Shown here: positions 50,106 to 52,836 of the stretch, in pieces
How positions within the stretch are numbered: the stretch's first letter is position 1
How the letters are laid out: the number at the start of each line of letters is the position of its first letter
Source: Candidatus Kryptonium sp.
Lineage (GTDB): Bacteria > Bacteroidota > Ignavibacteria > Kryptoniales > Kryptoniaceae
NCBI GenBank assembly: GCA_025060635.1
Contig: JANXBN010000001.1
Span: forward strand, 62,001 to 126,000
Direction of reading: 5' to 3'
DNA: 64,000 bases
Translations under genes and position numbers: made by a program
Notes under the pieces: generated by a model
The model's database searches: none
What the model was told of the DNA's origin: nothing
Seen by the model: only the letters and a program-made list of their open reading frames with translations

Positions 50106-50474
50106 ATGTTTATGAAAAGATTTGTAGTGACATTCTTTGCTTTACTTTTTCTCTTCACTGTTGTTCTGTTCGCCCAGGAAAGGGGCAGGGGTTATGGGAT
50201 GTATCTTGAGAGATTGAAACAGGAATTAAATTTAAGCCCTGAACAGATTGCAAAAATTCAGAAAATTCTTGACGCTGCGCAAAAGCAGGCTGAGGCTGAC
50301 AGAGAAAAGTATCAGGGTAACAGAGATGCTATGATGAAGGCAATGCGTGAGAGATGGGAAAAAATTGATAAAGAAATTGAGTCAGTCTTAACGAAAGATC
50401 AAAAAAAGAAATATGAGCAGATAAAGAAAGAACGGCAAGAAAGGATGCGTGAGTGGAGAGGAAGGCCAAGTTAA
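50106..50474 (+). CDS. Spy/CpxP-like periplasmic protein (LTxxQ-type)
   Basis: A 122-residue exported helical protein. A signal peptide (RFVVTFFALLFLFTVVLFAQ) is followed by KQELNLSPEQIAKIQKILDA, the LTxxQ-like pattern of Spy/CpxP and related envelope-stress chaperones, then charged helices (RERWEKIDKEIESVLTKDQK) and a basic end (RMREWRGRPS). In relatives such proteins bind unfolded proteins or metals. Alternative start at 50112 gives nearly the same product. It converges with the DUF2400 gene, overlapping it by 4 nt. Confidence 0.75.
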   Translation: MFMKRFVVTFFALLFLFTVVLFAQERGRGYGMYLERLKQELNLSPEQIAKIQKILDAAQKQAEADREKYQGNRDAMMKAMRERWEKIDKEIESVLTKDQKKKYEQIKKERQERMREWRGRPS

Positions 50475-51292
50475 GATATGTTTTTTAGCTCTATTCCAAG
50501 CCCAAAAATAGCAAAATCATACTTCACGGGATCTTCGGGATCTAACTTTCTTAAATTTTCTGTTATTTCTTCTGCTGTTTTCCATGTGTCGGTTTTTCTT
50601 TGAGTTAGCCCAAGATCCCGTGAAATTTTTGAAACATGCGTATCAAGTGGAATTATTAATTTTGATTTATCAACCTCGCTCCATAATCCCACATCAACTT
50701 GATCTTTTCTCACCATCCATCTTAAGAACATATTAAGGCGCTTGCAAGGGCTATTTTTTTCCGGATCTGGTATGAGTCCACTTACGCTTTTTGGAATCCC
50801 ATTAAATTTAGGCGGTGGATCAAAAGACAAAATCTCTTTAACGAATCCTGAAAGTGCCTGTTTTATAGTCGGATGTTTTGCGTCGTAGTATTTCAAAAAT
50901 AAGTTTTTTAATCTCCCGTATTTTTCAAGCGTCTGCTTCAAAAGATAGAATATCACAAGCAGATCTCTTCCTTCAATGTTTCTATATGCGTAGTGGACAA
51001 AGCTATCCAACCTTTTCTCATACCAAAATGGATCAAAATTTAAAACGAAATCATATGGTCGGTTCTCCATTAATTCAAACAACTGTTCATTGCTTGATAA
51101 TATAATTTTCCTATTTCCCATCGCAAGAAGAGAAGCAATGAAACCAGCTATTTCCATATCCTTTGGCTCTGAAAAGCGATGAACAAACTTGACGGGGTCA
51201 GAATTTATAAAATCAGGAGTGTTATATTTTTTAAAAAGCCAATCAAGGTAATCCTTGAGCGATGTAAATTCTGGAGGTATTTTGATTTTCAT
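50471..51292 (-). CDS. TIGR02757 / DUF2400 family protein
   Basis: A 273-residue soluble protein of unknown function matching DUF2400: the SDPVKFVHRFSEPKDMEIAG start, FIASLLAMGNRKIILSS, and the characteristic C-terminal half SPCKRLNMFLRWMVRKDQVD, GLWSEVDKSKLIIPLDTHVS, KISRDLGLTQRKTDTWKTAE and VKYDFAIFGLGI. The helix-hairpin-helix-like region near 'PLDTHVSKISRDLGL' recalls HhH-GPD DNA glycosylases, so a nucleic-acid role is plausible. Its ATG overlaps the thyX stop. Confidence 0.85.
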   Translation of the reverse strand: MKIKIPPEFTSLKDYLDWLFKKYNTPDFINSDPVKFVHRFSEPKDMEIAGFIASLLAMGNRKIILSSNEQLFELMENRPYDFVLNFDPFWYEKRLDSFVHYAYRNIEGRDLLVIFYLLKQTLEKYGRLKNLFLKYYDAKHPTIKQALSGFVKEILSFDPPPKFNGIPKSVSGLIPDPEKNSPCKRLNMFLRWMVRKDQVDVGLWSEVDKSKLIIPLDTHVSKISRDLGLTQRKTDTWKTAEEITENLRKLDPEDPVKYDFAIFGLGIELKNIS

Positions 51293-52836
51293 ATTAATCT
51301 TGAATACTCATTTAATTTTAGCTTCCAAACTTTTACACCACAAAATCTGGGACCCTCCGGACAGGTTGGTTTCACATTTGCGAGATCTCTAATTGAACAC
51401 GGCGGGAGCAAGAATTTAGCAATCCTTGGGTGAATTTCCGAGATTTGTTGAACTTCTTCAAAAGAGGCGCGCCATATTTCCTCTTGTGCGTTGTAGCAAA
51501 GTCGCATCGCATATTTATGATGAAGATTTAAAAGATCTCCTGACTCTGTGAATCTTATACTAACAGCGTTTGGCAGAAGATAAAGGAAAAACTCGGATGA
51601 AACACCAAGTTTCTTTAGTTTAGCGATGTTTTCCCAAATTCTTTCCATTGTTTGAGTGTAAATCTTCAAGGCGAGATCGCTTTGAGAAATCAAAGCTGGT
51701 GTTATGAAATCTGGTTCGTCATATATTTGGCAACTTAAGATTGGTCTTGATGCTGGTACCATACGATGTCTTTGGTCTTGGGAATCTGCCGTGTGGCTTA
51801 ATTTCTTTTTAAATGTGTATGAGACATGGAACATTGCTCTTGACAATTTGCTGTGCGTTGTAAGGACGAGTGATTCTGCAAGTATTTTATTTATAGATGG
51901 GTTTAAAACAAGATTTATTGCTTCGTCATCACTTAATGCATTTGAGGGTAATCCAAAGATCTCTCTTACAGAACTGGCGAGAATTTTCTCGGCATTTGGT
52001 TTATAATCAATCAGGAGCGAGATTTTTCCATCAAGGGATTCGTCAAACTCTTTTGCAAATTCTTTGGAAAAATTTTCTTGGTACGAGTTTTGGGCAAAAT
52101 TAAATTCTGTTATATCTTTCTCATCAAGTGGTTCTTCAAGTATGATTTTATAATTCGGGTCAACTTTTAAAATTTCATCAACTAATTTTTTCACCACGAT
52201 TTTTTGTTCAAGTGGGACATCAAATTGGTTACAAAGTTTGTAATATCTTAAAATCGTAACGGCACTTACTGTGTGGTATAAATACGCAAATGTTGCAATC
52301 GGGAGGACATATCGCGCGATTTCTTGTGCTTTCCTTTTTATGTCTTTTTTATACTTTTCTTGGTAAAATCTTCTTGCAGGAAATCTTTTATAATATTCAT
52401 TTTCAACGACGGGGAGTAAAATTTCTGTTAACTTTTTATATGTCTCGTTTTGAAATTCAACGGTTGAGATATAAATCTCAAGAGCTTTTCCATTGAGCGG
52501 TGGAACGAAGTAATTCCCTGGTTTTACTTCAACATATCTTTGTGAGACCTGTTCAGAATTGTAAAACGGATGGCTGTGAAGAAACGACCAAATGAATTGT
52601 CTTGATATGTTCTCAATCGCAAATTGAAAATGAGCGTGTTGAAATGTTGTATGATGTCCTGCTTCATAAATGCTTTTAGCAAGATCAATATACTTTTCAA
52701 TCTCAATATCTTCATCTTTTACTATTCCCTTTGAAGAATAACATGTCTTCGCAGTTGCGATCACATTTTTAAATGGTTCGGGAAAGTATTTAACAAGCTT
52801 AACGACTGGCTCTGGAGAAAGCGGCTTATCTATCAT
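51289..52836 (-). CDS. thyX: Double-length FAD-dependent thymidylate synthase ThyX
   Basis: ThyX makes dTMP from dUMP using methylenetetrahydrofolate and FAD. This 515-residue protein contains two ThyX-like halves. Half 1 (about 10-240) has ISRQFIWSFLHSHP (77-90) and NSEQVSQRY (93-101), aligning with the latter part of the canonical RHRxxSxNExSxRY motif, but the RHR is absent. Half 2 (about 275-515) has the intact QRHRMVPAS (355-363) but no NE-x-S-x-RY. Both halves keep a late 'R-x...Aq-EIr'-like helix (VTILRYYKLC; IRFTESGDLLNL). Each single-domain family member is about 220-250 residues. Long ThyX proteins of this kind are known from chlamydiae. No thyA is present in the window. Confidence 0.88.
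   Translation of the reverse strand: MIDKPLSPEPVVKLVKYFPEPFKNVIATAKTCYSSKGIVKDEDIEIEKYIDLAKSIYEAGHHTTFQHAHFQFAIENISRQFIWSFLHSHPFYNSEQVSQRYVEVKPGNYFVPPLNGKALEIYISTVEFQNETYKKLTEILLPVVENEYYKRFPARRFYQEKYKKDIKRKAQEIARYVLPIATFAYLYHTVSAVTILRYYKLCNQFDVPLEQKIVVKKLVDEILKVDPNYKIILEEPLDEKDITEFNFAQNSYQENFSKEFAKEFDESLDGKISLLIDYKPNAEKILASSVREIFGLPSNALSDDEAINLVLNPSINKILAESLVLTTHSKLSRAMFHVSYTFKKKLSHTADSQDQRHRMVPASRPILSCQIYDEPDFITPALISQSDLALKIYTQTMERIWENIAKLKKLGVSSEFFLYLLPNAVSIRFTESGDLLNLHHKYAMRLCYNAQEEIWRASFEEVQQISEIHPRIAKFLLPPCSIRDLANVKPTCPEGPRFCGVKVWKLKLNEYSRLI

Follow-up and report, generated by a model that had tools for sequence, protein, structure and literature searches.

A double-length ThyX whose fused domains appear to divide the active site of the homotetrameric enzyme between them

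Comparison with described ThyX proteins

Flavin-dependent thymidylate synthases (ThyX, FDTS) with solved structures, such as those of Mycobacterium tuberculosis (Mtb; 2AF6, 3GWC) and Thermotoga maritima (TM0449; 1O26), are homotetramers of the Thy1 fold. In the Mtb enzyme each site draws on three subunits: subunit A supplies R95-H96-R97 and R199, subunit B supplies S71 and R190, and subunit C supplies R87, S105, R107 and the lid residue Y108, as well as a backbone contact from Q103 (PMC6514825). The protein described here is encoded in a window of 64,000 nucleotides (the whole stretch of Candidatus Kryptonium DNA that was analyzed), has the Thy1 fold in both halves and, over the chain as a whole, retains all of the catalytic and most of the ligand-binding residues. 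Unlike the four identical subunits of ThyX, however, it consists of two fused domains, with the subunit A residues only in half 2 and the subunit B and C residues only in half 1, and it lacks Mtb R190. The genome has neither ThyA nor dihydrofolate reductase (DHFR), as the use of ThyX would allow.

Among annotated proteins, the plasmid-encoded TRD_RS10450 of Thermomicrobium roseum (WP_012643046.1) aligns with 97% of the query at 42% identity and has the same partition of residues, although its annotation, ‘FAD-dependent thymidylate synthase’, makes no mention of a split. The partition also recurs in Microcystis phage Ma-LMM01 gp020 (YP_851034.1, 491 aa), in Vibrio phage vB_VmeM-Yong and in gp50 of Tunturiibacter phage Tunturi_5. 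These phage proteins match the window protein in carrying S-x-R-Y and R172 (Mtb numbering) in half 1 and RHR and R199 in half 2, but differ in their low identity to it (16–19%) and in a half 2 motif of the form RD-x-(N/H)-RHR. Two of the four phage proteins compared (L128, L129, L130 and L131, from Microcystis phages Mvi-JY20 and Ma-LMM01, vB_VmeM-Yong and Tunturi_5) are annotated only as hypothetical, and the Tunturi_5 gene follows a dCMP deaminase gene. The long chlamydial ThyX, CT632 (about 530 aa), is similar in length to the window protein; if it did belong to this family, the published chlamydial biochemistry would already apply.

Both ThyX domains lie in a single open reading frame (Table 1), in agreement with the original prediction: Pfam Thy1 (PF02511) matches the chain in two stretches (E=2.9e-52, 177.7 bits), and each half scored individually exceeds the cut-off of 24.8 bits. 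The NCBIfam model TIGR02170 (thyX) scores the whole chain at 95.5 bits, barely above its cut-off of 87.9. The end of this reading frame overlaps a DUF2400 gene by four bases (51289–51292), and the two genes are probably co-transcribed. The chain terminates, after half 2, in a tail with cysteines that is also seen in the single ThyX proteins of Clostridioides and Geoalkalibacter plasmids and possibly binds metal.

Table 1. Features of the double ThyX locus, in window coordinates
Feature	Coordinates	Strand	Basis or assignment
Double-length FAD-dependent thymidylate synthase, two ThyX domains	51289..52836	-	Single ORF, 515 aa
Half 1, residues 1–245, subunit B/C residues kept	52102..52836	-	Thy1 E=7.2e-31 alone
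Half 2, residues 246–515, subunit A residues kept	51289..52101	-	Thy1 E=3.5e-21 alone
Half 1 GHHTTFQH (60–67)	52636..52659	-	H61 = Mtb H69; T63 = Mtb S71 (FAD phosphate, subunit B)
Half 1 R79	52600..52602	-	Mtb R87 (dUMP, subunit C); 100% of 81
Half 1 S88-H89-P90	52567..52575	-	Canonical RHR position, lost; profile alignments
Half 1 SQRY (98–101)	52534..52545	-	Mtb S105, R107, Y108 (dUMP and tyrosine lid, subunit C)
Half 1 R175	52312..52314	-	Mtb R172 / T. maritima R147; 100% of 81
Half 1 C202	52231..52233	-	Catalytic Arg position (Mtb R199 / T. maritima R174), lost; C 72%, A 14%, S 5%
Half 2 R356-H357-R358	51763..51771	-	RHR (FAD, subunit A); 100% of 81
Half 2 R445	51502..51504	-	Mtb R199 / T. 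maritima R174 (dUMP activation, subunit A); 100% of 80
Half 2 C-terminal tail, PPC...CPEG..CG	51337..51405	-	Cysteine-bearing
DUF2400 gene	50471..51292	-	

Partition of the active-site residues

One scan of genome contigs found 187 relatives, of which 80 loci (53–87% identity, nearly all full length) were kept. Canonical positions, numbered after the solved chains of T. maritima TM0449 and Mtb ThyX, were placed on each half by profile alignments (HMMER; hhalign), and conservation at each position was counted over 80–81 homologues. In half 1, H61, T63 and the SQRY motif are each present in 100% of 81 homologues, as is Q96, the equivalent of Mtb Q103. The RHR columns of this half read instead S (90%), H (100%) and P (99%), and the column of the catalytic arginine, Mtb R199, is occupied by C (72%), A (14%) or S (5%). 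Half 2 has the complementary pattern: it keeps RHR and R445, while its R87 column is H, its S71 column is R, the column for Mtb R172 is variable, and S-x-R-Y is missing. The contiguous signature RHRxxSxNExSxRY is therefore found in neither domain, with RHR in half 2 only and S-x-R-Y in half 1 only. Taken over its whole length, the chain has every FAD and dUMP ligand residue in one of its halves, apart from Mtb R190, a subunit B contact to the FAD phosphate that is gone from both halves (I/L/V and L). The column of Mtb H194 (T. maritima N169) contains an invariant arginine in half 1 (R197) and an invariant histidine in half 2 (H440); as a guess, R197 may substitute for the lost R190.

These results bear out most of the motif assignments made beforehand. 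NSEQVSQRY in half 1, which is without RHR, and QRHRMVPAS in half 2, which is without S-x-R-Y, were found as described, and because both motifs are present in 81/81 homologues, their separation is not a chance feature of one sequence. The claim that WSF stands in the place of RHR in half 1 did not hold, since WSF (83–85) sits 3–5 residues upstream of the RHR columns, and the profile alignments place one inserted residue between S88-H89-P90 and SEQVSQRY. Half 1 does retain the second part of the signature, but not as a literal NE-x-S-x-RY: its sequence is E-Q-V-S-Q-R-Y, where Q takes the place of the ‘E’, and in this it resembles the SQLSQRY of Mtb ThyX.

The same partition is seen in double ThyXs that share only 15–22% identity with the window protein and whose full-length match to it was missed by simple searches; these come from Bacteroidota, from Microcystis, Vibrio and Tunturiibacter phages, and from one faecal scaffold. 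In an alignment of 14 double ThyXs (the window protein and 13 others, 15–61% identical to it), all 14 have, in Mtb numbering, H69, S/T71, S105, R107, Y108 and R172 in half 1, and R95-H96-R97 and R199 in half 2. The S, R and Y of SQRY in half 1 and RHR with R445 in half 2 are thus invariant throughout the double ThyXs compared. R190 and R87 are not general among the 14, the latter (half 1 R79) not being kept in types II and III. The second type (about 473 aa), with the motifs GGQESSTRY in half 1 and RDLNRHR in half 2, was found in three Bacteroidota genomes from the host's own class (G032, G050 and G059; loci L095, L096 and L097) and at loci L106–L108; in the Bacteroidota proteins the residue mapping is weaker for half 2, since Pfam detects half 1 only and half 2 is recognized mainly by its motifs. 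The third type (470 aa) is encoded on the faecal scaffold MT835736, which is labelled as phage (L120:832-2241), and its second half is like an ordinary gut-type ThyX. A scan of viral contigs found no relatives of this protein.

The partition follows subunit role rather than mere neighbourhood in the sequence, since R199 stays with RHR across roughly 90 residues, and R172 stays with SQRY across about 75. The sequence comparisons thus support a segregation of the ligand residues by tetramer subunit, the A set into half 2 and the B and C sets into half 1, in line with the suggestion that each half keeps one face of the active site; judged from these residues, neither half should function without the other. 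It might be argued that catalysis is confined to one half and that the second has a purely structural or regulatory part, given that several canonical residues have been lost from each half and that half 1 has invariant residues of its own (H87, H89, Y92 and N93). We consider this very unlikely: at the level of sequence, the condition named beforehand as refuting the shared site, one half holding all FAD and dUMP residues, did not arise in any of the double ThyXs compared, and a purely structural half would leave unexplained why both sets are fixed across families at 15–22% identity.

AlphaFold2 gives a confident model for the whole protein (pLDDT 85.5, pTM 0.85), which has the ThyX fold according to Foldseek, with matches to the ThyX of M. 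tuberculosis (2AF6) and T. maritima (1O27) at TM-scores of 0.70–0.76 on the target, and the only segment below a pLDDT of 50 is the motif loop at residues 97–99. Against the model of the 491 aa thymidylate synthase of Microcystis phage LMM01 the TM-score is 0.65–0.68 at 15% identity, and since this match spans the full length, the two models share the arrangement of their halves. When half 2 was modelled alone, pLDDT fell to 59 and core strands were lost, compared with block means of about 62–98 in the model of the full chain. We read this as a sign that half 2 depends on half 1, with the proviso that the alignment behind half 2 alone was shallower (32 sequences, against 47 for the full chain).

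On this basis we propose that the enzyme would carry out the flavin-dependent methylation of dUMP to dTMP by ThyX chemistry, with its two fused domains sharing out the three roles that fall to identical subunits at every common site of the homotetramer. In the A role, half 2 would hold FAD with its RHR and activate dUMP with R445. Half 1 would act in the B and C roles, T63 holding the FAD phosphate, S98 and R100 (and probably R175) holding the dUMP phosphate, and Y101 closing the site as its lid. A pair of chains would form a pseudo-tetramer of four domains in which each half 2 centres one complete site, two in all, while both sites built around half 1, which lack RHR and the catalytic arginine, would be dead. 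The expected halving of the usual number of complete sites comes from the geometry of the tetramer: if the halves take up tetramer positions, only the sites centred on half 2 would be complete. We hold it to be highly probable that this protein is the cell's thymidylate synthase and that it works in this divided manner.

Thymidylate synthesis in the host and its relatives

The host genome (2.5 Mb, 97% complete) contains no ThyA and no other Thy1/ThyX gene, and no DHFR was found in it or in 20 relatives. The ThyX reaction releases tetrahydrofolate, so that a cell with ThyX can dispense with DHFR. A survey of 100 genomes, comprising the host and its relatives, identified the window-type double ThyX in 28 (two of them incomplete at contig ends), a second-type double in 3, a single ThyX in 53, ThyA only in 11 and none of these in 5. 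ThyA and a separate complete ThyX are both absent from all 31 genomes that carry a double ThyX, and the second type is the sole thymidylate synthase candidate in G032, G050 and G059. There is one clear case of single ThyX alongside ThyA (G065) and one doubtful case (G071, 31 bits), and genus g2 has a single ThyX in one species and double ThyX in all the others. Across 41 genomes sampled from the whole family, full-length ThyA is likewise absent (there are two partial matches, of 33–40 bits), as is a second complete ThyX; one double-ThyX genome (G218) has an additional, separate Thy1 gene (L109, G218:C74:128-642) broken into two frames of 137 and 108 aa.

Foldseek also matches the model to the UMP/dUMP methylase PolB. 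The window protein could be a ThyX-fold methylase of another substrate, for example one of the UMP/dUMP type for a natural product, or a base-modifying enzyme, with dTMP coming from salvage or from an unknown synthase; salvage of thymidine is possible, since the host genome encodes thymidine kinase. This is very unlikely, however. Thymidine kinase is also present in relatives with a single ThyX, the host is without ThyA, another ThyX or DHFR, one genome after another has the double ThyX in place of ThyA and single ThyX, and the listed dUMP-contacting residues are kept in one half or the other. That the protein is inactive or decaying, as the motif parts missing from each half might be taken to indicate, is extremely improbable, given that the retained residues are 100% conserved in 80–81 sequences and that this is the sole thymidylate synthase found in the genome. 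The double ThyX thus very probably works as a thymidylate synthase that depends on both halves for its sites, and we infer two complete sites for every four domains.

Distribution, origin and significance

The window protein shares with its family both homology over the full length of the two halves and the same residue partition. The titles of the kept loci, as deposited, name Kryptonia, Ignavibacteria, Acidobacteria, Nitrospirota, Omnitrophota, FCPU426, Neomarinimicrobiota, Cloacimonetes, Planctomycetes, Verrucomicrobia, Myxococcales, Sumerlaeota and Gemmatimonadales, among others. More distant members are encoded on the Thermomicrobium plasmid (42% identity) and on two viral contigs (32%); the same partition holds in family members at 32–44% identity from a phage contig and the Thermomicrobium plasmid (L117, L119).

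In phylogenetic trees each half of the window family forms a single clade, and the phage and Thermomicrobium members branch first in both, which indicates that the fusion is old and that the halves have stayed together since. A direct comparison by hhalign detected no similarity between half 1 and half 2 (probability 7.8), so the halves are related only through the ThyX family. Branches are long, and AU tests come down neither for nor against common origins, whether for duplication versus fusion or for one versus several origins. We suggest, tentatively, that the active-site split, always with the B/C face first and the A face second, may have evolved repeatedly, each time independently, in bacteria and phages. 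As a length class, double-length ThyX is known from annotations in public databases. A literature search that covered few subscription papers, and none of those on chlamydial ThyX, returned no description of a double or split ThyX, and the novelty of the active-site split is accordingly provisional.

The trait is widespread, with the window family in genomes labelled as at least ten phyla and related doubles in phages, and the single-chain motif RHRxxSxNExSxRY is an unsafe marker for ThyX. If the splits were indeed independent, the double ThyX would be an endpoint that evolution has reached repeatedly from a homo-oligomeric enzyme with a multi-subunit site. The family offers a natural case of complementary degeneration, in which a site shared by identical subunits passes to two non-identical domains that each keep a part of it, and with it the number of working sites that a ThyX particle needs becomes directly testable.
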